Origin: an uncultured Sphingorhabdus sp.
Lineage (GTDB): Bacteria; Pseudomonadota; Alphaproteobacteria; Sphingomonadales; Sphingomonadaceae
NCBI GenBank assembly: GCA_905479715.1
Contig: CAJQNR010000038.1
Location: 1-40,450 of the forward strand
Length of the DNA: 40,450 nt
Direction of reading: 5' to 3'
Position 1 is the first letter of the stretch. Each line of letters opens with the position of its first letter. This document shows positions 412-38,253 of this stretch, piece after piece. The notes under the pieces were generated by a model that made no database searches, was not told where the DNA came from, and was given only the letters and a program-made list of their open reading frames with translations. A program made the position numbers and the translations under genes.

Positions 412-1395
412 TTAGCGTTCGTGGGAGCTTTTCCAAAAAGAAAGAACGCTCCTGAGAGCTGCGACAAAGGCCAATGGCTGATCGAGCATCAGGTGGTGGC
501 GGGCTTCCGGTATGGCTATTATCGGGATGTCGTTTCCACCCATCTCGCGGATGTAATCGGCAGAATCCTGTGAGAAGAGCAGACTGTTACCGCCGTGCAC
601 GATTGCTTTGCGGCCCGGCGCTTGCACCAGCCGCTTACCCATGTTCAGCCACTCCTCGGGCCTATTGCTCCGCCGGAAAACCTCTGGTGAGAATTTCCAC
701 GTCCAACTGCCTCTTTTATGCTTCAGCGAATGATACGCAATATAATCTAGCAGGAATGGCTCCTCGGCGGGCTGAGGCGGCGATAGGATGTAGCGCGCAC
801 GCGCTGCTTCATAGCTGGGATAGCGCTTGTTGGGCTTGTCCGGATTCCCTGATCCCGGGCTCGACCGATCGTTCTTCCAGTATTTTTCAAGCAATTCAGG
901 GCGCATGATCATAAGGTCGCATACGACCACTCCAGCAAAGGCGTCGGGCGACTGGGTCACGGCTGTCAGCGCGGCACCCGAACCGAAGCTGTGCGCGATG
1001 ATCGTTGGCTTTTGGCCATCCGCAAACATGTTCAGGGCCTCGGCAACCTCGGTGAATTCCCTCCCGCGGGCCGCCGTGTCAGCTGCCCCCCGCATTTCGC
1101 TGTCCCCCATACCCGCCAAATCGAATGCCACGACATCATATTCTTCCGCGAAGAACGGCGCAATAAAAGCGAAGCAGCGGGCATGGGCGAGGAAGCCATG
1201 TGTCATTAGCAATTTGGGCTTATCGGGGCTGCCCCAGCGGAGATAGTGCACCTTGGCACCGGAAATCTCTACATAAGCTTCTTCGCGCGGCACGTTCAGT
1301 GCTGCTATGAACCATTCGGGCAGGTGCGAACCGTCCCCGGCCCACAAGGAATCGATGTCAGTCGGAAGGTTGTTTACAGGGGTCATTTCATTCAT
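412..1395 (-). CDS. Alpha/beta-fold hydrolase (probable ester/lactone hydrolase)
   Basis: 327 aa from the ATG at 1395, chosen because AAGGAA lies about 12 nt upstream and homologous-looking sequence begins there; the open frame extends further upstream but overlaps the BVMO gene. Visible motifs: oxyanion-hole HG at residues 65-66 (THGFLAH), nucleophile elbow A-H-S-F-G with Ser136, and His300/His301 near the C-terminus as the candidate general base. It is the last gene of the operon, 29 nt after the Baeyer-Villiger monooxygenase. The natural reading (inference) is hydrolysis of the ester or lactone the BVMO makes. Epoxide hydrolase or haloalkane dehalogenase-like activity cannot be excluded from sequence. 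Confidence 0.85.
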   Translation of the reverse strand: MNEMTPVNNLPTDIDSLWAGDGSHLPEWFIAALNVPREEAYVEISGAKVHYLRWGSPDKPKLLMTHGFLAHARCFAFIAPFFAEEYDVVAFDLAGMGDSEMRGAADTAARGREFTEVAEALNMFADGQKPTIIAHSFGSGAALTAVTQSPDAFAGVVVCDLMIMRPELLEKYWKNDRSSPGSGNPDKPNKRYPSYEAARARYILSPPQPAEEPFLLDYIAYHSLKHKRGSWTWKFSPEVFRRSNRPEEWLNMGKRLVQAPGRKAIVHGGNSLLFSQDSADYIREMGGNDIPIIAIPEARHHLMLDQPLAFVAALRSVLSFWKSSHER

Positions 1396-1424: not shown

Positions 1425-3029
1425 TTAGGTGGCGAATCCGCGATAGGCATTTTGCGCTACGTCGTCGCATACGGCGGCATAGCCAACCACGCTTGGGAAA
1501 TTGATAAGCTGGCGCTTCTTGCTCGGGATGTTTGCGCCCATGTACCAGGAGTCCGCTTCGGGAAAGAGTGTCATCGCGCCAGCTTGGGCGACTATTTCGG
1601 TCCAGGTCGTCTCGGCCTGCGGTTCGGCATCGAAGAGCTTGATCCCGCCTTGCCTCAGCCATATCAGAAAGTCGCAAATCCAGTCGCCTTGTATCTCAGC
1701 GCTCGTTGGGCCGTTCGCAAAACCTGATGGGCTCAGGGGACCGTAAGAAAACAGCATATTGGGAAAGCCCGTCACGGACATGCCCAGATAGGCGCGCAAG
1801 CCATCGTTCCAGGCCTGTGCCAAACCGAGCCCGCCCAGCCCGGTTATATTCATGTCGATCAGTCCGCCGCGTCCGGCATCGAAGCCTGTTGCAAAGACGA
1901 TCAGATCGCAGTCAAACGCCCCATCCTGAGTTTCGATACGGTCCGCGCTGATCCGGACGATCGGCGTTTCCTTCAGATCGACGAGCGCGACATTTTCCTG
2001 CGCAAAAATCTCGTAATAATTCTGTTCCAGCGATGGCCGCTTGGTGCCGAAGGGGTGGGGCGGCTCGGCAGGAGCAAGTTTTTCCGCAAGCGCCGGATCG
2101 ACGATCCGCTCCCGGACTTTGTCGCGCCAGAAATCATAAGCGTAGCGGTTTGCTTCGCGGTTGGTGAGCATATCCGCAAAATTGTGATACCAAAATTTTA
2201 GACCGCCGCGCTGCCAGAGATGCTCGAAATGTGCGGTGCGCTCCTCATCGCTAACCTCAAGTGCCGATTTTTCCAGCGACTGGTATTCAAAACCCCCGCT
2301 GGTCTGCTTGCGTTGTTCGAAAATGGCCGGATACCCCTGCTTTTCGCACACCTGCCCTTCCTCGGTCATTGTCTCCTGGCGCATGGGAAGGGCCAGGATC
2401 GGCGTCCTCTGAAACAGTGTCAGCCGGTCTGCTGATTTTGCTGCCTCCTGTGCCACCTGCACACCGCTGGCGCCGGTGCCGATCAGGCAAATCTTGCGGC
2501 CTGCCAGATCAATGCCTTCCTGAGGCCAGCGCGCGGTGTGGCACCATTCGCCAGCGAAGGTGTCGAGGCCGGGAATGTCGGGGACATAAGGCTTCGACGC
2601 GAAGCCGAGAGCCGGCAGGAGAAACCGCGCTGTCACCGTGTCCCCACCGTCCAGATGCAGGCGCCAGAGCGATGCCTTTTCGGCGAAGCGCGCGCTTTCG
2701 ACCCTCGTGCCCAAACGCATGTGCGGCCACAGATCGAGGGTATCGCAGACATGACGAAAATAGGTGCGCAGCTCTTCCCATCCGGGAAAGCGCTCGGTCC
2801 AAGACCATGTCTGCCATATATCTGGGAGTGAGAATTCGTAAAGCGGAACCTGCGAATCGACCCGCGCGCCCGGATAGCGGTTCCAGTACCAGATGCCGCC
2901 GGGCTGGGCGGCAGCATCGACCAGCAGGATATTGAACCCGGCCTCGCGCAGTTTGTGAAGCAGGTAGATGCCGCTGAAACCGGCACCGACGATCACCGCG
3001 TCATAGTCTGGCGTGGTCTTGCCGCTCAC
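1425..3029 (-). CDS. Baeyer-Villiger flavin monooxygenase
   Basis: 534 aa with a GTG start whose GTGA overlaps the stop of the upstream CoA ligase by 4 nt, indicating translational coupling. The FAD-binding Rossmann motif GAGFSG is at residues 15-20, the NADPH-binding GTGASG at 184-189, and between them the BVMO fingerprint FxGxxxHTxxWP is complete at 158-169 (FAGEWCHTARWP). The length is normal for type I BVMOs (cyclohexanone or steroid/phenylacetone type). These enzymes insert one O atom next to a carbonyl using NADPH and O2, giving an ester or lactone; the hydrolase gene directly downstream fits cleavage of that product. Substrate is not determinable from sequence. Confidence 0.93.
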   Translation of the reverse strand: MSGKTTPDYDAVIVGAGFSGIYLLHKLREAGFNILLVDAAAQPGGIWYWNRYPGARVDSQVPLYEFSLPDIWQTWSWTERFPGWEELRTYFRHVCDTLDLWPHMRLGTRVESARFAEKASLWRLHLDGGDTVTARFLLPALGFASKPYVPDIPGLDTFAGEWCHTARWPQEGIDLAGRKICLIGTGASGVQVAQEAAKSADRLTLFQRTPILALPMRQETMTEEGQVCEKQGYPAIFEQRKQTSGGFEYQSLEKSALEVSDEERTAHFEHLWQRGGLKFWYHNFADMLTNREANRYAYDFWRDKVRERIVDPALAEKLAPAEPPHPFGTKRPSLEQNYYEIFAQENVALVDLKETPIVRISADRIETQDGAFDCDLIVFATGFDAGRGGLIDMNITGLGGLGLAQAWNDGLRAYLGMSVTGFPNMLFSYGPLSPSGFANGPTSAEIQGDWICDFLIWLRQGGIKLFDAEPQAETTWTEIVAQAGAMTLFPEADSWYMGANIPSKKRQLINFPSVVGYAAVCDDVAQNAYRGFAT

Positions 3030-4639
3030 GCTGCCGCCCTGCTGCCTTCCGCAATTTTCTTTGCCGCTGCGTAATCCGCCTTTCCGTTCGAGGCGCGCAG
3101 AGGCGTGTCGGTAGGATGGATCGCCTTGGGCGTTTTATATCCCGCCAGCTGCTGGCGGACGTGATCCTTTACAGCTTGCTCATCAAATTCAGCCTGCTTG
3201 TCGAGATGAACCACGGCGGTTACCGCTTGACCCCATTTTTCGTCCGGCACGCCGACCACCAGCGCATCGGCGATGGCGGGGTGGGTCTTCAGCACTTCTT
3301 CGACTTCTTCGGGATAGACCTTTTCACCAGCGGTGTTGATGCACACGCTGCCCCGGCCGAGCAGGGTCAGGCTGCCATCGGTCTCCACGTGGCACCAGTC
3401 GCCCGGTATCGAGTAACGCACACCGTCGATTGTCTTGAAAGTCTTGGCCGACTTTTCGGGGTCCTTGTAATAGCCGACCGGGATCGCACCCTTGCGCGCG
3501 ATAAAGCCGGGCACGCCGCTGCCCGGTTCGACCGTCTGGTCGTTCTCGTCGAACACGTCGCAGAACTCGCCGATGCCGAATTTGGCGGTGTTGGTGCCGC
3601 CTTGCGCGGTGGTGACCGAAAGGCCGTAGCCGAGGCCTTCGGAAGCGCCGAAACTGTCCATCAGGATGACTTGAGAAATGTGCTTGCAAAGACCGGCCTT
3701 GACCTCCTTGCTCCACATCACGCCGGACGAGATGATCGACACGAGGCTGCTGGTATCCCAGCGGCCGGGATGTTCGTCGAGGGCGCGAAGCATCGGCTTG
3801 GCGAAAGCGTCACCCACGATTGCGATACTCTCGACCTTGTGTTTCTCGACCGTCTCCCACAACTCTTCGGCATCGAATGACGGGTCGGAGAGTGTAACGA
3901 TTGCACCGCCCGACATCAGCGCGCCGATCCCGGTGATAAAGCCTGTGCCGTGCATCAGCGGGCAGGAGGGGAGGGTGCGGCGTCCCGGCCCCTGGCTCTT
4001 GATCAGCGCGACGTTTTCTTCGTGCGACTGCGGCACCGGGCCGAGCAGCTTTTGCGCGTCGAGCTGCGCCTTGCGCATGTCGTCGTGCCGCCACATCACG
4101 CCCTTGGGCATGCCGGTGGTGCCGCCGGTATAGATGAACAGCAGATCGCCTGGTGAGCGCTCGATGCCTAGAGGCGAACCGTCTCCCTGCGTCGTGAGAT
4201 GTTCATAGGGAACGGCGAAAGGGGCGATTTCCGACGCATCACCGATCTCGACGAAAGTGTGGACCTTCTCAAGCCGGTCCTTCAGCTCAAGGATATAGTC
4301 GCGAAATTCGGAGCTGTAGACGATCACCTCGCTGTCGGAATCGTCGAAGATGTAGAATACTTCTTCGGGCACGTAGCGATAATTGATGTTCACATGCGTG
4401 AGCCGACCCTTGAAGCAGGCCGCCATCAGCTCGCCGTATTCGGGACGGTTTCGCATGTAGAACGCCACCTTCGCTCCGTCGACGGCACCGCGTTCCCGCA
4501 GGTTGCGCGCGAGATTGTTCGAACGGACTGACATTTCCGGCCATGTGATGATCCGGTCGCCATGGATCAGCGCGGGCGCATCCTTCGGCATGGCCGGTTC
4601 GATAGCATCAAGAATGTCGCCAAGGTTCCAGTCGATCAC
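3026..4639 (-). CDS. Acyl-CoA synthetase (FadD3/FadD19-like AMP-forming ligase)
   Basis: 537 aa from a GTG start. The ANL-superfamily phosphate-binding loop TGGTTGMPKG is at residues 171-180; the C-terminal domain has the GEKVYPEEVEEV region and the adenylation lysine in NGK near residue 520. It should activate a carboxylic acid as a CoA thioester via an acyl-AMP. Overall it resembles ligases used for steroid or terpenoid side-chain or ring acids more than long-chain fatty acid FadD (inference from overall look). It follows the acyl-CoA dehydrogenase pair after 62 nt and overlaps the BVMO start by 4 nt, so it supplies the CoA esters for the rest of the operon. Confidence 0.9.
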   Translation of the reverse strand: MIDWNLGDILDAIEPAMPKDAPALIHGDRIITWPEMSVRSNNLARNLRERGAVDGAKVAFYMRNRPEYGELMAACFKGRLTHVNINYRYVPEEVFYIFDDSDSEVIVYSSEFRDYILELKDRLEKVHTFVEIGDASEIAPFAVPYEHLTTQGDGSPLGIERSPGDLLFIYTGGTTGMPKGVMWRHDDMRKAQLDAQKLLGPVPQSHEENVALIKSQGPGRRTLPSCPLMHGTGFITGIGALMSGGAIVTLSDPSFDAEELWETVEKHKVESIAIVGDAFAKPMLRALDEHPGRWDTSSLVSIISSGVMWSKEVKAGLCKHISQVILMDSFGASEGLGYGLSVTTAQGGTNTAKFGIGEFCDVFDENDQTVEPGSGVPGFIARKGAIPVGYYKDPEKSAKTFKTIDGVRYSIPGDWCHVETDGSLTLLGRGSVCINTAGEKVYPEEVEEVLKTHPAIADALVVGVPDEKWGQAVTAVVHLDKQAEFDEQAVKDHVRQQLAGYKTPKAIHPTDTPLRASNGKADYAAAKKIAEGSRAAA

Positions 4640-4701: not shown

Positions 4702-5793
4702 TCACGCTGCCCGGGTCCACCCCTGCCGCGCTGCTGCTTCGGCTCTCACCGCTTCGGGGCCGCCAAGAACCTGGCGATCGAAACCGATCCGCTTGAACCA
4801 ATAATGGAGCCCAAGCAGGTCGGTGAAGCCCATCCCGCCATGCACTTCGGTGGAAGTGCGCGCGACGAAGCGATACACCTCGCCGGTATGCGATTTCGCA
4901 TGGCACGCGGCGAGCGTGGCTTCATCCGACGCCGCGTCGAAAGCATGCGCTGCGTACCAAATCAGGGAGCGGCATGGTTCGTGACGGGCTGCCATTTCCG
5001 CGCACATATGCTTGACCGCCTGAAAGCTGCCAATGATCCGCCCGAATTGTTCGCGCTGTCCGGCATAATCGACCGCCTTCTCAATCATGGCCTGACCCGC
5101 GCCGAGGCTGTCAGCGGCCAGGATCACCCGGCCCGCATCGCGCAGCCGTGCCGCAGTCGCTCCGCCATCGTTGGCCAGTGGTTCGGCCGCAACGGTCTCG
5201 AACCGCATTTCCCCTACGCTGCGGGTGCGGTCGATCGTCGTCAGCGGGATTTTCTCCAGCCCCGGTGCATCGGCGGGGACGAAGTGCATCCGCCCCGCGG
5301 TATCGGCCACCAGGAAGGCCTCGGCGCCGGTGAAATCGAGTGCGAACAGCGCCGTGCCGTCCAGCTTGCCGCTGTTGCAGGTTACGCCCGCCCCGTCGCG
5401 CGCCTCAATAGTCTCGGCAATGGCAACGGCGATCTGCGCTTTGCCGCTGGCGATCTGAGGCAACCACTCAGCCTGCTGCTGCTCGTTGCCGGCTTGCGCC
5501 AGCGCGATGGGTGCAAGCACATGGCTGGCGAGAAACGGCACCGGAGCGACCGCATAGGCAAGCTGTTCGGCCACAATAGCTGCATCTAGCAAGGTCATAC
5601 CGAGGCCGCCATGCTGTTCGGGAACCATCATTCCTGTGATGCCCAGTTCGCTCAGTGCAGACTGCACCTTTTCGCTGTAAGAAGCTTCGCCTTCGGCGCA
5701 CTCACGCACATGGTCGAGCGGGCAGGTGTCGGCGAGGCATCGCGCGACTGTATCGCGCAGCATCTGCTGGTCTTGCGACAGTCCGAAATCCAT
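4702..5793 (-). CDS. Acyl-CoA dehydrogenase, small-type subunit
   Basis: 363 aa; ATG start shares one base with the stop of the upstream acyl-CoA dehydrogenase (TGATG). The ACAD N-terminal helical domain, middle domain and C-terminal helical domain are recognisable (PEQHGGLGMTLLDAAIVAEQ; REQFGRIIGSFQAVKHMCA; STEVHGGMGFTD). It is shorter than usual and has no YEGT-type catalytic segment; after HGGMGFTD the sequence goes straight to a diverged C-terminus. That is the pattern of heteromeric alpha2beta2 ACADs of steroid side-chain degradation, where two adjacent genes give one enzyme (known for M. tuberculosis FadE pairs). The partner is most likely the gene immediately upstream. Confidence 0.9.
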   Translation of the reverse strand: MDFGLSQDQQMLRDTVARCLADTCPLDHVRECAEGEASYSEKVQSALSELGITGMMVPEQHGGLGMTLLDAAIVAEQLAYAVAPVPFLASHVLAPIALAQAGNEQQQAEWLPQIASGKAQIAVAIAETIEARDGAGVTCNSGKLDGTALFALDFTGAEAFLVADTAGRMHFVPADAPGLEKIPLTTIDRTRSVGEMRFETVAAEPLANDGGATAARLRDAGRVILAADSLGAGQAMIEKAVDYAGQREQFGRIIGSFQAVKHMCAEMAARHEPCRSLIWYAAHAFDAASDEATLAACHAKSHTGEVYRFVARTSTEVHGGMGFTDLLGLHYWFKRIGFDRQVLGGPEAVRAEAAARQGWTRAA

Positions 5794-7043
5794 CAGGCGG
5801 CTCCCTGTTTCTGGCGGGCCGCGACGGCGGCGCCCTGTTCGGCCGGCGCAGGTTTGGCCAGCTTAGGTTCGCGCGGCATATCGAGACCGCGTTCGGCGAT
5901 GATGTTCTTCTGGATCTGCGCGGTACCTCCACCGATGATAAGGCCCAGCTGGAACATGTAGTTCCACTGCCACGCGCCTCCTTCGCGCTCGCGATTGCTA
6001 CCGTGATAAAGGATGCCGATCTCGCCCATGGCGTCGATCGCCAGAGCCGATATCTGATGCGCCAGTTCGCAGCTTTGCAGCTTGACAATCAGCTTGGCCA
6101 TGCCGCCGGGTTCGCCCTTCAGATTGTCCGAAAGGATACGCATTCCGTTGTATTTCATCGCTGCAACTTCGGCCTGAAGCGCCGCCAACCGGTCGCGCAG
6201 CACGGCATTGTCGATCGCGCGGCCTTGGCCGACACGTTCTTTCTGCATTAGCTTGACCAGTGCCTGAAATCGGTTTTCCAGCGCATCGGGATCGCCCAGC
6301 ATGCCGCGTTCGTGACCCAGTGTCGCATTGGCGACGAACCAGCCTTGACCACGCTGGCCGACGATCTGGTCCATCGGCACCCGCACGTCGGTGAAGAACG
6401 TCTCGTTAAATTCGGCGTGACCGGTCATGGTCTTGAGCGGACGCACCTCAATCCCCGGCGTATCCATCGAGAATATCAGATAGGAAATGCCGCCGTGCTT
6501 GGGCGCGTCAGGTTCGGTCCTGACCAGGCAGAAGATCATGTCCGCCTGCTTGGCCGTGCTGGTCCAGATCTTCTGGCCGTTGATCACGAATTCGCCGTTT
6601 TCGATCCGCGCGCTGGTTTTCAGGCTGGCAAGGTCCGATCCCGCGCCGGGCTCGGAATAGCCCTGGCACCATACGACCTCGCCTTTCAGCGTCGGCTCGA
6701 CCCACTGGCGTTTCTGTGCCTCAGTTCCCAGTTCCAGCAGTGTAGGGACCAGCATCGATATGCCTTGGTTGGCAAGTCCGCCGGGAATGCCGGCGCGCGC
6801 GAATTCCTCGGCGATGATTCGCGATTTGAGAATGTCGGGCTCGGCCCCGTAACCCCCGTATTCCGTGGGGATCGTGCGCGCGGTATAGCCATGTTCGATC
6901 AGCAGCTTTTGCCACTCGACCGCCTCGGGACAGGGGCGGGCGGCCCGGCCCTGCTCGGCTGGCGCACGATTCCCGTACGTCTTTAAGAATTGTCGCACTT
7001 CCTCGCAGAAAGCGTCATATTCGGGTCCATATTCGAGATCCAT
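5793..7043 (-). CDS. Acyl-CoA dehydrogenase, large-type subunit
   Basis: 416 aa, ATG start 7 nt after the DUF35 gene. Typical ACAD features: PTEYGGYGAEP, the FAD/substrate stretch WCQGYSEPGAGSDLASL, INGQKIWTSTAKQAD, and the FAD-contacting GGGTAQIQKNIIAERGL near the C-terminus. Where medium-chain ACADs have catalytic Glu in YEGT, this protein has IIGGGT, so Glu is replaced by Gly. The base must come from another position (for example helix G, as in isovaleryl- or long-chain ACADs and steroid FadEs). Coupled with the downstream small subunit. Expected reaction: alpha,beta-dehydrogenation of an acyl-CoA with a bulky or branched substituent; electrons pass to ETF. Confidence 0.9.
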   Translation of the reverse strand: MDLEYGPEYDAFCEEVRQFLKTYGNRAPAEQGRAARPCPEAVEWQKLLIEHGYTARTIPTEYGGYGAEPDILKSRIIAEEFARAGIPGGLANQGISMLVPTLLELGTEAQKRQWVEPTLKGEVVWCQGYSEPGAGSDLASLKTSARIENGEFVINGQKIWTSTAKQADMIFCLVRTEPDAPKHGGISYLIFSMDTPGIEVRPLKTMTGHAEFNETFFTDVRVPMDQIVGQRGQGWFVANATLGHERGMLGDPDALENRFQALVKLMQKERVGQGRAIDNAVLRDRLAALQAEVAAMKYNGMRILSDNLKGEPGGMAKLIVKLQSCELAHQISALAIDAMGEIGILYHGSNREREGGAWQWNYMFQLGLIIGGGTAQIQKNIIAERGLDMPREPKLAKPAPAEQGAAVAARQKQGAA

Positions 7044-7050
7044 TTCGTGC

Positions 7051-7527
7051 TTATCCTTCGTGGGGTAGGTTCGTATCGGGGCGGAAAACCGGCAGGCGGA
7101 AATCCGCGCCGATCAGTTCGAAATCGAGCGTTACCGGAAGGTCCAGCTCTAGCTTGTCGCGGTCGCAATCGATCAGACGCGTGGCCATGCGGACGCCTTC
7201 TTCCAGTTCCACCACCGCCGAGACGAACGGAATGTCAGCGGCAAAGGCAGGGTGCAGAGCCTGATGTGTGACCGTCCAGGAAAACAGCGTACCTTTTCCG
7301 CTGCTTTGCTCCCAAGAAAAGTCGGGCGAGCCGCATTTTGCGCACATGTAGCGCGGCAGGTGGCGGAAGGTGCCACATTCGCCGCAGCGCTGGAAATAGA
7401 GATTGCCGTCCTGGCAACGGTTCCAGAATTCCTGTTCCACCGGATCCTGCGGGCGCGGTTGCGGCTTTGGCGGCGCCTTCTGCGCCGAGGCACGCATTTT
7501 GGGCGGAAGATTCTTCTCGTCGCTCAT
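7051..7527 (-). CDS. Zn-ribbon/OB-fold protein (DUF35 family), thiolase partner
   Basis: 158 aa from the ATG at 7527, which overlaps the thiolase stop by 4 nt; an in-frame extension upstream lies inside the thiolase gene. A rubredoxin-like zinc ribbon is formed by Cys48, Cys51, Cys62 and Cys65, followed by an OB-fold region ([15 protein letters not shown]). The first 30 residues are Pro/Lys-rich. DUF35 proteins pair with thiolase-fold proteins; in actinobacterial steroid degradation the DUF35 domain of ChsH2 binds Ltp2 and makes a retro-aldolase. Here the DUF35 is stand-alone, not fused to a MaoC hydratase domain. Adjacent thiolase gene supports the same partnership. Confidence 0.9.
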
Positions 7528-8714
7528 GCAAACCTCCTCAGGATAGCGATACTGCCATCGCCCAAGTCGCCCCAGCCGGTGACCAGCCCGGTCTGCGCGC
7601 CTTCGACCTGGCGTTCGCCGCAATCGTGGCGCAGTTGACGCACCGCCTCGACCACGTGGTTGAGGCCCCAGACATGCGCTTCGCTCAGCAGGCCGCCATG
7701 GGTGTTGACCGGATAGCGCCCGCCCAGCTCGATCTGCCCGTCGGCGACAAATTCACCCTGTCCGCCCGGTTCGCAATAACCCAGCGCTTCGAGCTGTAGC
7801 AGGACGACATAAGTAAAGCAGTCGTAGATCTGCAGGAAATCCATGTCCTCGCGGCGAACGCCCGCCATGTCGAAGGCGCGCGGGGCGGCATAGCTGAGGC
7901 CGATTTTGAACGGATCGGGCCGGGAAGGAATGTCGTCGGCCGGATAGGGATGTCCCTCGGCTGCGCCCGCAATGCTGACGGGGACATGCGGCATGTCTTT
8001 TGCCCGGTCCATCCGCGAGACGACGACCGCGCAGGCTCCGTCGGTTTCCAGGCAGCAATCGTAAAGGCGGAAAGGTTCGGAAATCAACCGCGCCGAGTGA
8101 TAGGTTTCCGCGTCCAGCTCGCGCCCATAGGTAAAGGCCTGCGGATTCATCTGCGCATGGCGGCGGCAGGCCAGCGCGACGGCCGCCATTGCGTCAGGCC
8201 CGACGCCGTAAAGCTTTGAATGGCGGGTCGCGAGCCAGGCATACATTTGCACCGGCAAAAACACGCCATAGGGACTGTAATAGCCTTTGACCGTGTTGGT
8301 CAGCGTGTTCATGTTCATCGGCCGCGTCGGCGGCGCACCTGGCTTGGGCCTGAGCGCCGAATATCCGTTCCAGCCCAGCGTTATGAGCACATGGTCGCAC
8401 AGGCCGCTGGCGATCGCCATTGCCGCGTTTTGCAGCGCCGTAGTCGGGCTGGCCCCGCCCATATGCACTGTGGCGGCATAGCGCAGCACATCGATACCCA
8501 GATTGGCGGCCATTTCCTCTGACGTCGTATAGATCGGCGGCGGCACCATGCCATCGATATCGGAAGGTTTCAGCCCGGCATCCGCGATGGCGCGGCGCGA
8601 TGCTTCCAGCATCATGTCCACTGCGGTGCGTTCGGTGCCTTTGACGAAAGCGGTTTCGCCAACGCCAGTGATAGCGGACCTGTCGCTGAAGCTTAGGGCG
8701 GCGGTACCGTTCAT
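7524..8714 (-). CDS. Thiolase-like protein (SCPx/Ltp2-type, probable acyl-CoA retro-aldolase)
   Basis: 396 aa, ATG start overlapping the COQ4-like gene stop by 4 nt. Thiolase fold is indicated by [16 protein letters not shown] (residues 86-101), [14 protein letters not shown] (292-305), the [11 protein letters not shown] block with His339, and the C-terminal [10 protein letters not shown] glycine loop. At the position where thiolases carry the nucleophilic Cys it has Ala-Ser (88-89), so classical thiolytic cleavage is unlikely. Tyr297 and His339 remain in the active-site motifs. Together with the coupled DUF35 gene this matches Ltp2-type non-thiolytic aldol-lyases that remove propionyl-CoA or acetyl-CoA from 3-hydroxyacyl-CoAs. 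Assignment to that reaction is inference. Confidence 0.87.
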
Positions 8715-9490
8715 GCCTGCAGCTCGCCTTGCCGGCGCGCCTGAAACTCACGCTCCAGTCGCTGTGAAAGATCACGCACGCCTACATATACTGCCGGGGG
8801 CTGGAGGTTCAGATCGCGGCGCACTTCCTCAAGCGGGTGATCGAGGTACCTTTCCCAATAGAAAGTGGTCAGGTCCGCTGCCTTGCGACCCAGTCGCCAC
8901 GCCTCAAACGCGGCGCGCGCGACGGGGAGCTGCCATTGCTCCGCCAGCAGTTTGGGAATACCGACCGCAACGATGAAGGTGATGCCGTGATTGTAGAATT
9001 GTGCATTGCCAAAAGAGAGTACGCACAATTCGCCCAATGCATCGCGGCCATAACCGGTCACCACATGGAACAGATCGTGCGAATCGCGCAGACGTTGGCG
9101 ATAGAGCGTGACCGCAGGATCGCTGAATTCTGCCATGCCGCTTGCCTCGCTCGCCTCGGCCAAGCCCTGAGCGGTCAGTCCCTCGCCATAGACGAAATCG
9201 AGATAAGCGCGGCCAAGCGTCCCCGGCGCGCAGCGCGCCAGACGCTCCCGGTCGCTGAGCGTGCCGAGCAAATCGGCCCGTTCCGTCAGGATCGTCTGCC
9301 CTTGCGGCGAGGCGGCGAAGCGGCGGAAGTTGCGGTAGTAGGAATTGCCCGATAGCGCCTGGACGATGCGAAATACCTGCGAAGTGTCTTCCTTGTCCGC
9401 TATCAGCCGGCGCATTGCCGAAAAGGCTTCTCCAGGGCGAATGCCGCGGCGCAATTCGTGCCCTTGCGGCAAGTTTGGTACTTCGTTCAT
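8711..9490 (-). CDS. COQ4-like protein
   Basis: 259 aa from the ATG at 9490, preceded by GGAGGT 7 nt upstream; a weaker GTG at 9514 overlaps the upstream stop. The COQ4 metal-site signature HDxxH-x11-E is complete: His138-Asp139, His142 and Glu154. The remaining sequence is helical and soluble, with conserved-looking [10 protein letters not shown] and AQFYNHGIT segments. In eukaryotes COQ4 supports ubiquinone head-group processing, and recent work assigns it an oxidative decarboxylation step. Here it sits between an FMN oxidoreductase and a thiolase in a catabolic operon, so a role on a catabolic intermediate rather than quinone synthesis is likely (inference). Confidence 0.85.
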
Positions 9491-9510: not shown

Positions 9511-10653
9511 TCACGAGTAGGACTTGGCGGATGAAAGCGCCTCTTCGGCCCCCGTGACGAGATCCTGCATGACCTCGGAGGCGGGACGGATCGCGTCGAT
9601 CAGTCCGATCCCCTGACCTGCGAAACCGGGAATAACGTCTTTTCGCTCCGCCTTGATGCCGGAGGCCATTACCGGCCCGGAAATCATCGATTGGTACGGC
9701 ATGGGGAGGGGCTCTTTGCCCGCCTCAACCCATGCATCGGCCCATCTGTTGCGAATCATGCGCGCAGGCTTGCCGGTAAGAGAGCGGCTGACCACCGTGT
9801 CGTCCTCGCCGCTTTCGGTGATCGCTTCTTTCTGGAAGTGTTCGATACCCGCTTCCTCGGTCGCGAGGAACGCCGTTCCGATCCATGCGCCCTCGGCGCC
9901 CAGCATCATCGCGGCAGCAACGCCGCGGCCATCCGAAATGCCGCCGGCACCGATGACGGGAACGCGATCGCCTACCGCATCGACCACTTGCGGGATGAGC
10001 GAGATGGTGCCGATCGGCGAATTGTGACCGCCACCATCGTGACCCTGCGCCACAATCATGTCGATGCCCGAACCGACCACTTGCTCGGCATGTTTAACCT
10101 TGCCGATCACCGCCATGACCTTGGTGCCATTGGCATGCAGGCGGTCCATCCACGGTTCGGGATTGCCAAGACCCGCAGCATAGACGGACACTTTTTCCTC
10201 GATCACCACTTCCATCTGCGCTTCAAAGAACTCCTTCGAGAAGAGCTGAGGCCCGCCTTTCCCCATTTCGGGGGCGCCAGCCGCCCGCATGGCCGCCTCA
10301 GTATCAACTTGAGGAAGGCCTTCGCGGTCCATGAAATCGCGGGTGAACTGCTGGTATTCGCCCAGCAGTTCCATCGGATTTTCGGGTGCGCCACCGCTCT
10401 GCGGTGCGGATCCGCGCGTGACCGAGGCGGGCAGCAGCGTATCGACGCCGAAGGGCTTGTCGGTCAGCTCGCGGGTCTGACGAATCCAGTCGCGCAGCTG
10501 TTCAGGCGAACACGCCGCCGCACCCAGCACGCCCAACCCGCCCGCATTCGATACTGCCGCGGCCAGTGCCGGAACGCTTGCACCGCCCATGCCGGCCAGC
10601 AGGATCGGATATTCGATTCCCAGCATTTCACAAATTCGGCTTCTCAGTGCCAT
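9511..10653 (-). CDS. FMN-dependent oxidoreductase, nitronate monooxygenase / FabK-like family
   Basis: 380 aa from the ATG at 10653, behind an AG-rich GGAGAGGAAG ribosome-binding site; further upstream extension lacks one. TIM-barrel FMN enzyme features: N-terminal YPILLAGMGG, AQGHDGGGHNSPIGT with the active-site His region, VPVIGAGGISDGRG and MLGAEGAWIGTAFLATEEA for the FMN phosphate. The family covers nitronate monooxygenases, FabK-type enoyl-ACP reductases and uncharacterised reductases that recur in steroid and terpene clusters. In this context reduction or oxidation of an unsaturated CoA ester is more plausible than nitronate oxidation (inference). It is the first enzyme gene after gntR (55-nt gap). 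Confidence 0.88.
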   Translation of the reverse strand: MALRSRICEMLGIEYPILLAGMGGASVPALAAAVSNAGGLGVLGAAACSPEQLRDWIRQTRELTDKPFGVDTLLPASVTRGSAPQSGGAPENPMELLGEYQQFTRDFMDREGLPQVDTEAAMRAAGAPEMGKGGPQLFSKEFFEAQMEVVIEEKVSVYAAGLGNPEPWMDRLHANGTKVMAVIGKVKHAEQVVGSGIDMIVAQGHDGGGHNSPIGTISLIPQVVDAVGDRVPVIGAGGISDGRGVAAAMMLGAEGAWIGTAFLATEEAGIEHFQKEAITESGEDDTVVSRSLTGKPARMIRNRWADAWVEAGKEPLPMPYQSMISGPVMASGIKAERKDVIPGFAGQGIGLIDAIRPASEVMQDLVTGAEEALSSAKSYS

Positions 10654-10708: not shown

Positions 10709-11449
10709 CTAAATTTGCCCCCATTTGACCCGTTGGGACACCAGTTCCGGGCTGCGTTCCGCAAGATAGGATGCCGAGCCCGAGACGAGGCGGCTCATCG
10801 CCTGCCGCGCAGCTGCCTGGTCGCCAGTGCGCACCGATTCGAGAACGCTGCGCAAAAATCGTAGTTGGACCGCTCGCTCTTGTGCCGAATACCCCAGCGA
10901 GTTCGAGAATTCGCGGGTCAGCAAATGCATCGTCGAGGTTAGCAAGCCAAAGAGCGGATTGCCGCTTGCCCAGCCAAGCAGGTCGTGAAAACGGCGGTTC
11001 AGTTCCTCGAAATTATTGTCGGCTTCATTGCGCTCCAGTTCTTTGAAGCAATCGGCAAGTGCACTCAGGTCGCCCGTGGTCGCGCGCAGCGCGGCATAGG
11101 CAGCGACATCGGGCGCAATCGCCTCGCGCAGTTCCAGCAATCCGCGCAGGTCCGCTTCCATGAAATGCAGGATCAGCGACAGGCTATTGGCGAAATCACC
11201 AGTCTGCGGGCGTGCCACCACCGGCCCGCCTCCGCGCCCCAGTTGCAGGTGGATCACGCCCTGGAGTTCCAGGAAGCGCAAGGCTTCGCGCAAGGTCGCA
11301 CGGGCAACCTCGTAGCGCGCCAGCATCTCGTCCTCGTGCGGCAGCCGGTCCCCAGGAGAATGCGCCCCCGCCTCGATGTCGCGCACGATGTTCTGGGCGA
11401 GCGATAAGGCGCGCTTGGTTTTCTTCACTGTTTCGACCTGCGGCTGCAT
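10709..11449 (-). CDS. GntR/FadR-type transcriptional regulator (FCD domain)
   Basis: 246 aa from the ATG at 11449, preceded by AGGGG five bases upstream. The longer in-frame start at 11479 falls inside the predicted -10 box and is rejected. N-terminal winged helix (residues about 14-80: LPHEDEMLARYEVARATLREALRFLELQG, split here by family convention into helix-turn-helix and wing GRGGGPVV), then an all-helical FCD ligand-binding domain with LLELREAIAP and NRRFHDLL. FadR-subfamily members are usually repressors released by an organic or acyl-CoA ligand. It heads the minus-strand operon and faces the P450-ferredoxin pair, so it probably controls both and itself. Confidence 0.9.
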   Translation of the reverse strand: MQPQVETVKKTKRALSLAQNIVRDIEAGAHSPGDRLPHEDEMLARYEVARATLREALRFLELQGVIHLQLGRGGGPVVARPQTGDFANSLSLILHFMEADLRGLLELREAIAPDVAAYAALRATTGDLSALADCFKELERNEADNNFEELNRRFHDLLGWASGNPLFGLLTSTMHLLTREFSNSLGYSAQERAVQLRFLRSVLESVRTGDQAAARQAMSRLVSGSASYLAERSPELVSQRVKWGQI

Positions 11450-11477
11450 CGTTGCCCCTTGGCTAAAGTCGTATAAC

Positions 11478-11506
11478 ATTTAAAAGCGTTCAATGCCCGC
11501 TGTCAA
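11478..11506 (-). promoter_or_regulatory. Predicted sigma70-type promoter for gntR and the catabolic operon
   Basis: Reading the minus strand, TTGACA (11501-11506) is followed after exactly 17 nt by TTAAAT (11478-11483). Transcription would start near 11471 and leave about 22 nt before the gntR ATG, which carries the AGGGG site. Consensus match at -35 is perfect; -10 matches 4 of 6. It shares the 180-nt divergent region with the P450 promoter, where a GntR operator would be expected. Confidence 0.5.
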
Positions 11507-12894: not shown

Positions 12895-12924
12895 TTGTCC
12901 GAACCAAATATTGCGGAGATAGAA

Positions 12925-13251
12925 ATGGTAAAGGTAACGTTCGTCGCGAGCGACGGAGAGCGCCGGGAAGTCGAGATCGACAAAGGCGAAACCGCGCGCG
13001 AAGCGGCATTGTTCAACGACGTGCCGGGTATCGACGGCGATTGCGGAGGCGTTTGCGCCTGCGCGACCTGTCACGTTCATGTCGACCCCGAATGGATCGA
13101 CAAGGTCGGTCGGCTGCAGGAAGACGGGATGGAAGCCGAACTGCTGCAGTTCGCCGAAGGCACTACAGAATACAGCCGCCTCGCGTGCCAGATTCCGATG
13201 AAGCCGATGCTGGACGGCCTAGTGCTTCACGTGCCCGAACAGCAATATTGA
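12925..13251 (+). CDS. [2Fe-2S] ferredoxin, adrenodoxin/putidaredoxin type
   Basis: 108 aa from the ATG at 12925, with GGAG 9 nt upstream; a TTG at 12895 directly after the P450 stop is in frame but lacks such a site. Cluster ligands fit C-x5-C-x2-C...C: Cys40, Cys46, Cys49 and Cys88 (an additional Cys44 lies inside the loop). It is the electron donor expected for the P450 upstream. The FAD-dependent ferredoxin reductase that would complete the class I chain is not in this window. Confidence 0.92.
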   Translation: MVKVTFVASDGERREVEIDKGETAREAALFNDVPGIDGDCGGVCACATCHVHVDPEWIDKVGRLQEDGMEAELLQFAEGTTEYSRLACQIPMKPMLDGLVLHVPEQQY

Positions 13252-14044: not shown

Positions 14045-14815
14045 TCAACCTACTACTTCACTGGCTGCCCCATAACCCGCACTCTCGGGAATGGTGAGAA
14101 TGTTCTTCCCGTCACGCTGAACGATTTTCGGGAGGACTGGCGCGATCAAGCGCGCTTCGGCACGTTCGACGCAGTCCTGCGCACTGCTGGCCTGGGCCAG
14201 CAGTTCCAGGTTCAGCCTGGTGGGAAAGATAATCGTCCGCTCCCCGGCTTCGCCCATAGCCAGTGCGCCGCCAGGTGATAACCATTCGGCATCCACGGTT
14301 TCGTAGCCATCGCACGCCGCGATCTGGCGTTCGGGAGCGCGGGCGACGTAGAACCAAGTGTCGAAGCGCTTGTTCATGAAGGTGGGTGTGATTCACCGAG
14401 CGAAATCGCTAAGCCTGTCCAGCCGCAATTGCACATCGGCCTCACGAACCACGTCGAGGAACGCGAGTTCGCCTTGTTCGACCGCCTTGCGGCTTGCCGG
14501 GTCGCAGGAACCCTCGAAAGCGCTGCCATCGCTTTTATCGGCCAGCAGGATGCCCGCTTCCTCATAGGCTTCGCGAACTGCGGCGATCCGCAGGGTCCGC
14601 TGTGTCGGTTCAAGTGTGTCCCAGCCGGCGCAATGGTCGGCCCATTGCGCAGCATCATCACCCGTAGCTGGTTTCCCACCCGGAAAGACCAGCGCGCCGG
14701 AGGCAAAGTCGATCTGGTGGTGCCGCTTTACCATCAGCACTTGGAATTCCGGCTCGTCGCGCAGCAACAACATGGTGGCTGCGGGGACGGGATCGACGGG
14801 TTGCGGGCTGGTCAT
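14045..14815 (-). pseudogene. NUDIX hydrolase (NUDT7/NUDT19-like) with an in-frame nonsense codon
   Basis: From the ATG at 14815 (GGAGAGAG site upstream) the protein reads VLMVKRHHQIDF, FASGALVFPGGK and then the NUDIX core REAYEEAGILLA, with an insert between G and REUxEE typical of the acyl-CoA diphosphatase-like subgroup. The frame meets TGA at 14393-14395, exactly where a Trp is expected (LSDFAR-stop-ITPTF), and then continues in the same frame for 115 codons (FDTWFYVARAPE, DAEWLSPGGAL) to its natural stop at 14045. A single TGG-to-TGA change explains the break. Full length would be about 255 aa. Confidence 0.8.
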
Positions 14816-14880: not shown

Positions 14881-16389
14881 TCAATTCCATTTCCGGACCA
14901 ATGCGATCAGTGCGAGCGCTAGGGTGATCCCTGCCAGCACCCACGACTGGTCGGGTCGATGGTCACGGGAATCGAGCCAGATCGGGCGATAATGGTGGCA
15001 TTGCCGATTAGGTCTGGCAGGGAAGCCGAAAGACCGAACAGTCGGCGGCGCAGCTTGGTGAGCTGGCTGCGGGTCGCACCGAACGAGAACCGTTCCGACA
15101 GCAGTTCAATAAGGATGGGTCTGGTCTCTTCGGCAATGTTGTAGTCTGGCGCGAACGCGAGGACAGGGCCTTCGGTCGTCAGCAGTGTGCGCAGCAGGAT
15201 GGCAAGATCGGGCGGCAGGACGAGGCTGTATTCGCGCAGAAGGCCGAAAACCCGGTCGAAAAGCGCCGATAATTCGATCCCCGACAGCACCGTGCCGCGA
15301 AATTCTTCGATGATATGGTCCAGATCGAGGGCGAGCTGGTCGCGATCCACCGCCGGATTGCCGGCCCAGTCGAGCAGCAGATCGGCAACGTCCTCCGCCT
15401 GTTCGTCGGCGATTGCGAGGATCAGACGGACGATTTCCTGCCGACTCGCTCCGCTGAGAAAACCGACCGCGCCGAAATCGATGAAGCCAACCTGGTCAGC
15501 ATCCATCCGGAAAATATTACCGGGATGGGGGTCGCCATGGAATTTGCCATTGAGGATCATCATCCGCAGCACAGCATCGGCATAGCGTTTGGCAAATACG
15601 ATGTTTCGCGCCTTCTCCGCCACACGGTCGATCTGCGATGCGGTGCGATCTCAACCGGTCGATGCAACACAGGCGTTCCAGCACATTCACCCGCAGGCCG
15701 GTGAGATGCCAGTGTATCGCCGGGGACTTCGCTCCCAGCGTTTCAAGGTAGCCGCCGATCCGCTCGCAGGCCCGCGCTTCTGCAGCGAGGTCCATCTAGC
15801 GGGCCAGGTTCTTGCCGAAGGTCTGGAGGAACTCGACTGGACGATAGCGGGCGATGTCGCTCGACCGCCGCTCGGATAGCTTCGCCAGCCGCACCAGTAT
15901 GCGCATGTCTGCTTCCAGTCTGGCCGCAGTGCCCGACCGTCGAACCTTCACGATCACGTCACTGCTATTCAGCAAGGTTGCCGTATAGGTTTGGGCGATA
16001 GAGGCGGAGGCCATCGGATCGCGCTCGAATGCCGTGAAATCTTCCTCCCACTTCTCGCCCCAACTGGCGACGAGAACAGGCTCGATCGCGTCAAACGGCA
16101 GGGGCTCGACCCGGTCCTGAAGACTGGCCAAGGCGTCTATCCACTCGTCAGAGAACACATCGCCGCGCGTTGCGAGAAGTTGGCCGAGTTTCACACCGAT
16201 CGGGCCAATATCGCGCAGCAAGGCAACCATTGATTTCGGTCGCAAGTGCTCTGGACTGACATCTTCTTCCGGAAAAGGTGCAATTCCAAGGGCATTACCC
16301 AGATTCATTGCACCGTGACGGGCAAAAATTCGACCGAGTTCCGCCAATCGCGAAAGGTCGCCTATGAGTTTTTCCGAATCTCCGGGCAT
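14881..16389 (-). pseudogene. ABC1/UbiB-family (COQ8-like) kinase, several lesions
   Basis: Start ATG 16389. N-terminal part has LLRDIGPIGVKLGQLLATRGD (the KxGQ motif of ABC1 kinases) and SIAQTYTATL; C-terminal part has FHGDPHPGNIF and FIDFGAVG (catalytic and metal loops). The frame is broken three times: TAG at 15796-15798 after KNLAR, in frame with the continuing MDLAAEARACERI; a frameshift near 15640-15660 before DRVAEKARNIVF; and a second shift near 14970, after which a hydrophobic tail (WVLAGITLALALIALV) ends at the TGA of 14881-14883. UbiB proteins support ubiquinone synthesis; this copy is dead, and a functional one must be elsewhere. Confidence 0.8.
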
Positions 16390-16615: not shown

Positions 16616-17755
16616 GTGAGCGGACAAATGAAGGATATTTCCGAAGCTGTAGAGGGCGACAATGAACCGGCTGCGGGATCGCGTTCCAACAGGAAACTAC
16701 GCCTGTTCATCCTCGCGGCGGTGATCGTGGCCGTTCTTGCAGGTGCCTGGTGGTATTATCGTTATGTTACCTACGGGCAATACATGCAGTCAACCGACAA
16801 TGCCTACGTTGCAGCGGACAGTGTGGTGGTCTCTTCCAAGGTGGCCGGATACGTCGATGCGGTGCTGGTTTCGGAAAACCAACAGGTTGCCCGCGGCGAA
16901 GCACTGGTCCAGCTCGACCTGCGTGATTACCGCGCCCAAGCCGCTCAGGCACGCGCCCAGATCGCGGCCACGGTGGCCGGTGCCGACACGATCCGCTCGC
17001 AGGTGAGCGAACAGAACGCCGCGATCCGCCAGGCGCGCGCGCAATTGGCCGTCGCGCGCGCGACGCTAGACCTTGCCAACAAACAGGTGAACCGCTATCG
17101 CCCGCTCGCCGCCAGCGGGGCGGAACCGCGCGAAAAACTCGACCAGTACGTGACACAAGCGCAGCAGGCTCGGGCCGAACTTGCCTCCGCGCAGGCTGCG
17201 GTCGCGGCCGCCACAGGGCGCCGCGCCACGTTGTTTGAGCAGATCGAGCAGACCCGGGCACAGGCCGATGCTGCTCGCGCGCAGCTCGATGTTGCCGACC
17301 TCAATGTCTCTTCGACCCGGCTGGAAGCGAGCAGGGCAGGGCGCATTGGTGACCTGTCGGTCCGGGTCGGGCAGTTCGTCCAGCCCGGCCAGCGGCTCAT
17401 GACTCTGGTGCCGGTGAGCCAGATCTACGTTACCGCCAATTTCAAGGAAACGCAGGTCGGTCTCGTGCGACCGGGTCAGCCGGTCAGACTCGAAGTGGAT
17501 GCATTGCCAGATGGCAAGATTGCTGGAACGGTGGACAGCATCTCGCCCGGAACCGGGGCCGAATTTTCGATTTTGCCACCAGAAAACGCGACCGGGAACT
17601 TCACCAAGATCGTCCAGCGTATCCCGGTCCGCATATCCATCGACGCAGCACCCGAAGTGCGCCGCCTGCTCGTGCCCGGCATGTCGGTCGTCGCTACCAT
17701 CGACACCCGCGGTGCCGTCGGCGAACTCGAAGAGATTTCGAGCGCTGCCGAATGA
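16616..17755 (+). CDS. emrA: Membrane-fusion protein of an EmrAB-type efflux pump
   Basis: 379 aa from a GTG at 16616; ATG at 16628 is an alternative and neither has a strong site. One N-terminal membrane anchor (about residues 28-48, LFILAAVIVAVLAGAWWYY), then a biotinyl-lipoyl-like domain (STDNAYVAADSVVVSSKVAGYV), a long Ala/Gln/Arg-rich coiled-coil hairpin (about 100-245) and a beta-barrel domain (VSQIYVTANFKETQVG). This is the HlyD/EmrA layout: a periplasmic adaptor linking the inner-membrane MFS pump to the outer-membrane channel. It overlaps the MFS gene by 4 nt and the NodT-type channel follows. Confidence 0.92.
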   Translation: MSGQMKDISEAVEGDNEPAAGSRSNRKLRLFILAAVIVAVLAGAWWYYRYVTYGQYMQSTDNAYVAADSVVVSSKVAGYVDAVLVSENQQVARGEALVQLDLRDYRAQAAQARAQIAATVAGADTIRSQVSEQNAAIRQARAQLAVARATLDLANKQVNRYRPLAASGAEPREKLDQYVTQAQQARAELASAQAAVAAATGRRATLFEQIEQTRAQADAARAQLDVADLNVSSTRLEASRAGRIGDLSVRVGQFVQPGQRLMTLVPVSQIYVTANFKETQVGLVRPGQPVRLEVDALPDGKIAGTVDSISPGTGAEFSILPPENATGNFTKIVQRIPVRISIDAAPEVRRLLVPGMSVVATIDTRGAVGELEEISSAAE

Positions 17756-19323: not shown

Positions 19324-19330
19324 TACCGAC

Positions 19331-20797: not shown

Positions 20798-21220
20798 CTA
20801 CAGGTCACCGCATATATAGGCACCGCGCCCGCTAGCGAGCAATTTTTCATTCGGCCCGGTAACGCTGGTTTCGGCCACTGAAATTTGCTGACCGACTTTC
20901 ACAATCAAACCGGTTGCGACGAGCGGGCCTGAGGTTGCCGGGCGATGATAATCGACCCGCAGATCGGCAGTAGCCTTTACTTTCGTGCCCTGTGCAATGA
21001 GGGCGTAGAAACCGGTCAGGTCGATCAGAGACGCAAGTACGCCGCCATGGGCCGATCCGATTATAGGATTGGAAACGATTTCGTCGCGCCATGGCATTTC
21101 GAGCTCCAGCCGCTGCGGAGTCAGCGACCTAACCTTCAGATCGAGCCACGCATGGAAAGGCGCGATACGGAGAATTTCCTCTATGCGTGCCCGATCTATT
21201 CGCGCTGGCGCCTCGCTCAT
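20798..21220 (-). CDS. PaaI-type hotdog-fold thioesterase
   Basis: 140 aa, ATG start overlapping the stop of the alpha/beta hydrolase by 4 nt. The hotdog active-site stretch is GSAHGGVLASLIDLTGFYAL, followed by the strand DLRVDYHRPATSGPL, both typical of PaaI/YbgC-like acyl-CoA thioesterases. It would hydrolyse an aryl- or acyl-CoA, for example to rescue CoA from a dead-end intermediate. It forms a two-gene minus-strand unit with the hydrolase and is convergent with the efflux operon. Confidence 0.88.
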   Translation of the reverse strand: MSEAPARIDRARIEEILRIAPFHAWLDLKVRSLTPQRLELEMPWRDEIVSNPIIGSAHGGVLASLIDLTGFYALIAQGTKVKATADLRVDYHRPATSGPLVATGLIVKVGQQISVAETSVTGPNEKLLASGRGAYICGDL

Positions 21221-22104
21221 GTTTCTCGCCCCCGCATGGAGTGATGTCGTTTCAGGAAATCGAGAATGGCGTGAGAAAACGAATCGTTCGCATCGCCCAC
21301 AACCATGTGAGTGGCGCCGGCGATGTCGGTATATTCCGCATGCGGCGCAAGTTCGCGTAGATGCTCCACCGCGTCTTCGGAAACGAGGTCGCTCGAACCG
21401 CCGCGAATGAGATGGACCGGCAAGGTGAGGTTCTGGGTCGCCTGGCTTAATGCTTCAAATTGGCGTTGATGGCGCCCTTCATCGCGTTTGCTGACCGTCC
21501 TGCTGCTAAGGATAAAGGCTGGATCCCAATGCCAGTAATACCGCCCATCGGCTTTGTGTCGTAGATAGTTACGCAGCCCTTCGCCGCTCGACCGCTTGCG
21601 TCGAAGGGGCATATAACGCGCGATCGCTTCCGACGCCTCTTCGGGCGAGGCGAAACCGGTTTCGATATGCTCTTCCATAAATCCGACAATGCGGTTGACC
21701 CCGCTTACTTCCATCTGCGGTGCGATGTCGACAAGTGTCAGGGAAGCGAAGCTGCCGGGCGCCAAATCCCCTTCGGCGAGTATACCGGCCATTCCGCCCA
21801 GCGACGCCCCGACCAGCGCAAGCTTGCGCTCCATCCGTGATACGATGGCGACCAGATCGGACGCGAAATCGTGTGTTTCGTAAGCGCCATCGGCTGCCCA
21901 TTCGCTGTCGCCGTGGCCCCGCATGTCGATGGCGATTGCGTGGAAACCCGCCTCCGCAAGGTCGCCGACCACGTTCTTCCATGCACGACGTGTTTGCCCA
22001 CCACCATGAGCGAGCAGGACGGGCATCGCACCACTCTCGCCGTTGGCTTCGGCTGTGAGGGTCAAGCCTCCAGCTCCTTCAATGCTGACTGTTTCGCAAT
22101 ACAT
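21217..22104 (-). CDS. Alpha/beta-fold hydrolase
   Basis: 295 aa from the ATG at 22104, behind AGGGGGTAG; the frame continues to a TTG at 22134 but without a site. Oxyanion motif HGGGQTRR at 33-40, nucleophile GASLGG with Ser101, and GATHMVVGD with His266. RGHGDSEW is also typical of the fold. The C-terminal cap is helical. Substrate unknown; genes like it hydrolyse esters, lactones or C-C bonds in aromatic and steroid pathways. Its coupling to a CoA thioesterase suggests a catabolic role. Confidence 0.85.
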   Translation of the reverse strand: MYCETVSIEGAGGLTLTAEANGESGAMPVLLAHGGGQTRRAWKNVVGDLAEAGFHAIAIDMRGHGDSEWAADGAYETHDFASDLVAIVSRMERKLALVGASLGGMAGILAEGDLAPGSFASLTLVDIAPQMEVSGVNRIVGFMEEHIETGFASPEEASEAIARYMPLRRKRSSGEGLRNYLRHKADGRYYWHWDPAFILSSRTVSKRDEGRHQRQFEALSQATQNLTLPVHLIRGGSSDLVSEDAVEHLRELAPHAEYTDIAGATHMVVGDANDSFSHAILDFLKRHHSMRGRET

Positions 22105-22281
22105 GGGACTACCCCCTAGCTTCCGGCGCCCCAAACAGTAAAGTTATTTAATGTCTCGCCTTTGAAGGAAACTCACCAGCTTATAGCTGGTAGAAGGCTT
22201 CAGCCGTTATTGTTTGCTCAGCACTATCCTCCAGAAAATGACCCGCTCGCAGACGAAGTCATTTTCTCGAGGGTTGTGCTC

Positions 22282-38137: not shown

Positions 38138-38253
38138 GATTTGTCGCCCGGTTTTTGCCTTTCGTAGATTTTGCCATGCATGCGCGCGACGCAACCCCAA
38201 ATGGTCTGATTTCACTTGCCTTATCCCTAGTGAATTGCCACATCCGGTGCAAC

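Follow-up and report, generated by a model that had tools for sequence, protein, structure and literature searches.

A Coq4-family gene as an optional part of a mobile gene cluster that looks built for hydrocarbon degradation

Bacterial COQ4 proteins have, to our knowledge, no assigned role, and the question raised by the DNA analyzed here (40,450 nucleotides from an uncultured Sphingorhabdus sp., in the following called the window) is what a member of this family, otherwise associated with ubiquinone synthesis, contributes to an operon of catabolic appearance. The chemistry of COQ4 has been reported in two ways in the accessible text of the sources, for the ancestral protein as plain Zn-dependent C1 decarboxylation without hydroxylation (PMC7615680) and for the human protein as one-step oxidative decarboxylation (as cited in PMC11495197). 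A literature search, outside of which most subscription papers fell, retrieved no work joining COQ4 with CYP153, COQ4 with Sphingomonas and an operon, or COQ4 with oxidative decarboxylation and alphaproteobacteria; one genome report contains both COQ4 and nitronate monooxygenase.

The gene lies on the minus strand at 8711..9490, with its ATG at 9490 and its stop codon ending at 8711, and encodes 259 amino acids; an alternative GTG start at 9514 would yield 267. A preliminary description of this DNA had given the same coordinates, to which we add the strand, and had reported a complete metal site and an FMN oxidoreductase gene preceding COQ4, both of which are borne out. The protein matches the Coq4 family of Pfam (PF05019; 81.3 bits, E 8.1e-23, gathering score 22.9), is predicted to adopt the all-helical Coq4 fold and carries the motif HD-x2-H-x11-E in the form HDLFH(138-142)-x11-E, with H138, D139, H142 and E154 as its residues. 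This motif is intact in 52 of 52 cluster loci examined, which comprise 27 distinct aligned sequences. The N-terminal frame is shortened in 22 of the 52 loci, in 21 of them to 230 amino acids, and part of the COQ4 clade may therefore be decaying.

The COQ4 stop codon overlaps the start codon of the next gene (ATGA, 8711..8714, minus strand) in 51 of the 52 loci, L063 being the exception. The preliminary description had taken the partner for a thiolase gene, and here the overlap stands while the identity does not. The product of 7524..8714 (minus strand) has a thiolase fold, and we tried and rejected an assignment as SCP2-type thiolase: GGASP is found in 52 of 52 orthologues where the N-terminal nucleophilic cysteine would be expected, a position that we judged from the alignment to 6OK1 and the thiolase motif and presume to be the nucleophile site. 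Its best match in the PDB is chain A of 6OK1, the aldolase TcLtp2. Both GGASP and YDCF are kept in all 52 orthologues of at least 80% identity, and the protein combines the Y-D-[CH]-[FY] motif with an adjacent DUF35 partner, as is typical of Sal/Ltp2 proteins. The equivalent of YDCF reads YDHF in TcLtp2, YDCY in CtSal and YDCF in TbSLP, according to the accessible text of PMC12329534. Judged by these features, the partner of COQ4 is probably a retro-aldolase of the Sal/Ltp2 type.

Read along the minus strand, the operon starts with a GntR/FCD regulator (10709..11479, family match) and the NMO/FabK-like FMN enzyme (9511..10653, family match) immediately upstream of COQ4. Downstream of the aldolase follow a DUF35/OB-fold protein (7051..7527) with a C-x2-C-x10-C-x2-C zinc ribbon and ChsH2 DUF35 (6OK1_B) as its best PDB match, the large and the small partner of an acyl-CoA dehydrogenase pair (5793..7043, best match Tcur3483, 6WY8_B; 4702..5793, best match Tcur3481, 6WY8_A), an acyl-CoA synthetase (3026..4639, PRK07798 subfamily, above cut-off), a type I Baeyer-Villiger monooxygenase (BVMO; 1425..3029, 6JDK, 680 bits) and an alpha/beta hydrolase, possibly an esterase or lactonase (412..1386, with an internal start assumed at 1386). 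Genes for a CYP153-type cytochrome P450 (11632..12894, plus strand; CYP153A7, 635 bits) and a 2Fe-2S ferredoxin (12895..13251, plus strand, family match) diverge from this operon. The same block occurs in eight genome loci (L035-L042; the P450 match of L039 extends over just 136 residues, and a ferredoxin was not seen there) and on two plasmids, one from Sphingopyxis fribergensis and one from Sphingobium yanoikuyae, which are typed as mobilizable and conjugative. Farther away in the window, a 4HBT/PaaI thioesterase (20798..21220) and a second alpha/beta hydrolase (21217..22134), both on the minus strand, have relatives within the block in its Novosphingobium and plasmid versions. Taken together, this mobile cluster looks built to degrade blocked or branched hydrocarbons.

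The surroundings of the cluster yielded several further observations. An HlyD/MFS/OEP efflux set occupies 16616-20788 (plus strand), and relatives of this set border the cluster in Novosphingobium as well as on the S. yanoikuyae plasmid. A NUDIX hydrolase relative (14048-14815, minus strand) is 85% identical to its counterpart in L063 and recurs near the cluster in several loci. The ABC1/UbiB-family gene of the window (14919-16389, minus strand) is interrupted by frame changes and an in-frame stop and occupies two open frames; relatives with a long open frame adjoin the cluster in L063, L033, L147 and L149, where they represent a second CoQ-associated family. UbiD-family genes (318-327 bits) are found about 35-80 kb from the aldolase cluster on the same contig in genomes G217, G215, G240, G280 and G294. 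Many versions of the cluster (L059, L063, L068, L149-L151) have a second dehydrogenase pair beyond the ferredoxin, with about 80-89% identity from locus to locus. The window agrees at 100% identity in 16 of 16 matches to cluster and flanks, one of them spanning only 53 residues, with both Parasphingorhabdus flavimaris SW-151 and a MAG that bears the label Sphingopyxis NORP11 (L055/L056), and the label of the MAG may be wrong. A polyprenyl synthetase gene (38155-39267, plus strand, 248 bits) is separated by about 25 kb from the end of the cluster at which the ferredoxin lies, and the DNA around it looks like housekeeping DNA.

In order to place the protein among its relatives, genome contigs were scanned with two peptide patterns, which gave 146 relatives, and the best 80 were kept. 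Within this set the FMN gene of the cluster lies just upstream of COQ4 in 45 of 45 loci with at least 54% identity and in none of the 35 loci with at most 49% identity, some of the latter on short contigs. The aldolase block is present in 41 of the linked loci (partially in L058 and L072, which are located at contig ends); the other four (L096-L099) represent another setting, and in L099 a 4HBT thioesterase is inserted between the FMN gene and COQ4. Two trees without eukaryotic COQ4 and without an inferred root were calculated, a quick one of 80 rows and a careful one of 74, and in the latter all 16 linked rows fall on one side of a single branch (support 99/94) that was recovered in 98% of 200 bootstrap trees. 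The cluster-linked copies, which occur in Sphingomonadales, Hyphomonadaceae, one Roseovarius MAG and two plasmids, form a clade of their own apart from the unlinked alphaproteobacterial proteins. They do not group with these general copies, which are putative ubiquinone-pathway proteins, as the refutation of a catabolic recruitment set out in the preliminary description would have required. Y101, G102, S137, N162 and H168 are among the residues that are almost invariant in the clade and seldom found in other proteins (19 versus 29 rows); of these, S137 sits beside H138, N162 on the helix of E154 and H168 where the following helix begins. In the FMN-linked protein of L099, which was excluded from both sets, positions 162 and 168 are Y and R. 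COQ4 distances follow cluster distances closely (Mantel r 0.90 for 16 loci and 0.94 for 13, neither reached in any of 9999 permutations). Since it belongs to a separate clade, tracks the operon and is distinct from unlinked COQ4, this copy belongs to the catabolic operon.

Belonging to the operon does not make COQ4 a necessary part of it. Aldolase orthologues (E 1e-120 or better) are encoded in 17 of 296 genomes of the order and cluster COQ4 (at least 59% identity) in nine, and nine otherwise complete clusters (L143-L151, of which L143-L146 are near-copies) lack COQ4. These represent eight genomes without any cluster COQ4 and a second cluster in G294; no listed open reading frame of at least 100 amino acids is common to all nine and absent from the COQ4-bearing clusters. 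COQ4 can therefore not be an indispensable cluster-encoded step. On a cluster tree calculated from nine concatenated genes (23 rows, five of them with less than half of the columns), supported branches force four changes between presence and absence, of which three concern aldolase-bearing clusters (L148, L149 and the group L143/L147/L150/L151) and the fourth concerns the other setting (L153). L149 retains the first 34 and about 66 end bases of COQ4 in the space that separates its FMN and aldolase genes, identical to L036 at 31 of 34 and 62 of 66 positions, values not reached in any of 500 shuffles for either piece, and we read these remnants as a deletion scar. As COQ4 distances track those of the cluster, loss is favored over repeated gain. 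Where the gene is present, selection on it is purifying, as five diverged pairs with omega values of 0.08-0.21 show; it is less constrained than the FMN and aldolase genes (0.03-0.08 in the same pairs) and about as constrained as the DUF35 and hydrolase genes. The pairs not used had few synonymous changes (COQ4 0.42-0.72) or, in one case, were saturated. COQ4 is thus an optional, often lost part of the mobile cluster.

The FMN gene, for its part, is found in eight of 385 genomes of the class, including that of the window. Among seven other FMN-gene loci read outside the order, COQ4 is the neighbor in L152 and absent in six (L153-L158), and in L153 and L158 a BVMO gene takes its place. The association of the FMN gene with oxidative catabolism is therefore broader than its association with COQ4.

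What, then, could an optional member of this operon do? The explanation that we tentatively prefer, with a confidence approaching but not reaching an even chance, is that COQ4 is an accessory metalloenzyme of the Coq4 fold whose substrate is a hydrophobic intermediate of a mobile hydrocarbon operon and which can be replaced in trans. A Coq4-fold metalloprotein would have joined the ancestral operon downstream of the FMN gene and would have been inherited with it since. In the order of steps that we infer, CYP153 would oxidize an end of the hydrocarbon, the CoA ligase would activate the resulting acid, and the ChsE1E2-like dehydrogenase pair would form an enoyl-CoA in which a (methyl) branch or a ring blocks the beta-carbon. 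A beta-hydroxyl group would be added before the retro-aldol step, in which the Sal/Ltp2-like aldolase with its DUF35 partner would convert the beta-hydroxy-CoA to a ketone, to be opened by the BVMO and the hydrolase. From its gene content, the pathway fits hydrocarbons with a blocked beta-carbon, be it by a methyl branch or a ring. COQ4 most likely acts near the FMN and aldolase steps as an accessory, where it may bind a hydrophobic acyl or ring intermediate and perform metal-dependent chemistry; the oxidative decarboxylation, hydroxylation or handling of a CoA intermediate proposed in the preliminary description are guesses. In clusters that have lost the gene, its part may be taken over by some other enzyme, for which an unlinked COQ4 paralogue is a candidate. 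All eight genomes whose only cluster lacks COQ4 do carry another COQ4, which is weak evidence for such cover because COQ4 is common in the order (164 of 296 genomes).

An unlikely alternative is a non-catalytic handler that binds hydrophobic intermediates or serves as a scaffold for the dehydrogenase, the FMN enzyme and the aldolase. The closest solved relative by fold contained oleic acid and Mg, a structural role in a complex has been proposed for eukaryotic COQ4 (accessible text of PMC11495197), and a scaffold would be useful yet dispensable, which matches the optional nature of the gene. However, a mere scaffold might not need the metal motif that all 52 loci have kept.

It is somewhat less probable that the cluster copy is an extra ubiquinone-pathway protein which, by C1 or oxidative decarboxylation, raises the quinone supply while the cells grow on hydrocarbons and their acyl-CoA dehydrogenases load the pool. 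Such a role would agree with the published chemistry as far as accessible (PMC7615680, PMC11495197). An ABC1/UbiB-family gene is present near some clusters (the window, where it is broken, L033, L055, L056, L063, L067, L147 and L149). In a selection of 20 cluster genomes that represent some of the 45 linked loci, UbiD was undetected in 19 (one match, 327 bits), and 16 have a further, unlinked COQ4. The four with a single COQ4 are the MAGs L058 and L063 and the drafts of Pacificimonas aurantium and Actirhodobacter atriluteus, completeness not given; both drafts have cluster COQ4 only and no UbiD match. As for the second COQ4 about which the preliminary description had asked, the window's own MAG (89.5% complete) contains one COQ4 and no UbiD match, and P. 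flavimaris, whose cluster proteins are identical to those of the window, has two. Order-wide, 85 of 296 genomes have a UbiD-family match; none exceeds 327 bits in the window's family (f1, which we take to be Sphingomonadaceae), and full-length matches elsewhere in the order score 496-551 bits. Yet a UbiD match is also missing from the 20 listed f1 genomes without COQ4, and both genes are present in family f5, so that COQ4 is not simply a substitute for UbiD; the position in a clade of its own, the residue changes close to the metal motif and the co-inheritance with catabolic genes likewise argue against a quinone role.

Quite improbable, in our estimation, is that COQ4 supplies the aldolase with its tertiary beta-hydroxyacyl-CoA as a metal-dependent hydratase or hydroxylase, filling the position that MaoC hydratases occupy in steroid igr-type operons. 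COQ4 and aldolase genes overlap, four neighbors find their best PDB matches in the Thermomonospora curvata Ltp2/ChsH2 and Tcur3481/3483 structures, and Pfam found no MaoC or crotonase among the 30 window proteins scanned, short and unscanned reading frames lying outside this set, and no MaoC domain in the DUF35 protein. On the other hand, the aldolase persists in nine clusters that have neither COQ4 nor a visible local replacement, a housekeeping enoyl-CoA hydratase could perform the step, and we know of no Coq4 hydratase activity. That a duplicated COQ4 was caught in the operon as a passenger without pathway role and is drifting to loss is very improbable: repeated absence, the scar, shortened frames and a dN/dS above that of the FMN and aldolase genes would fit, but purifying selection in diverged pairs, the universal motif and long co-inheritance would not.

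If the clade were a new metal-dependent enzyme that hydrates or hydroxylates the blocked beta-carbon of CoA-bound or ring intermediates in the MaoC slot, a long shot at present, Coq4 proteins would gain a catabolic function outside quinone synthesis. Independently of this, the operon-coupled clade offers defined candidate substrates and natural plus/minus strains for probing the Coq4 fold, and the cluster, whose carriers include a 'Diesel'-named MAG and two plasmids, is a candidate for the degradation of petroleum components that beta-oxidation cannot attack.

Comparison with known systems sets this COQ4 and its operon apart from each of them. Unlinked alphaproteobacterial COQ4 proteins (sphingomonads, Caulobacter, Parvibaculum) are about 35-49% identical to that of the window among the rows listed, and all those extracted have the strict metal motif except the Cupriavidus plasmid row L034. 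Some of their genes occur in tandem pairs, and the neighbors in L050 are, judged from their sequences, presumably serB, miaA, a nitroreductase and purL. From other members of the family (eukaryotic COQ4, which lies outside our trees, Alr8543 of Nostoc, 6E12, and Npun02000094, 3MSQ), the window protein differs by its setting in a hydrocarbon operon and by its own clade with S137, N162 and H168. The dehydrogenase pair, the DUF35 protein and the aldolase find their best matches in the machinery of steroid igr-type operons (ChsE1E2, ChsH1H2, Ltp2) and of CtShy-CtSal; both dehydrogenases match the two partners of a single structure, 6WY8, which we take to belong to steroid side-chain degradation. 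Since the bit scores of all these matches are moderate (94-235), we do not call the proteins orthologues. In the igr-like set of Comamonas the hydratase is a MaoC enzyme (accessible text of PMC12502768). By its predicted gene products the window operon resembles such a side-chain operon without the MaoC hydratase, with COQ4 inserted and with CYP153 and BVMO added. In contrast to CYP153 alkane hydroxylase systems, with which it shares a P450 closest to CYP153A7 and a ferredoxin, it would couple the P450 to a route through the aldolase and the BVMO rather than to simple alkane oxidation.
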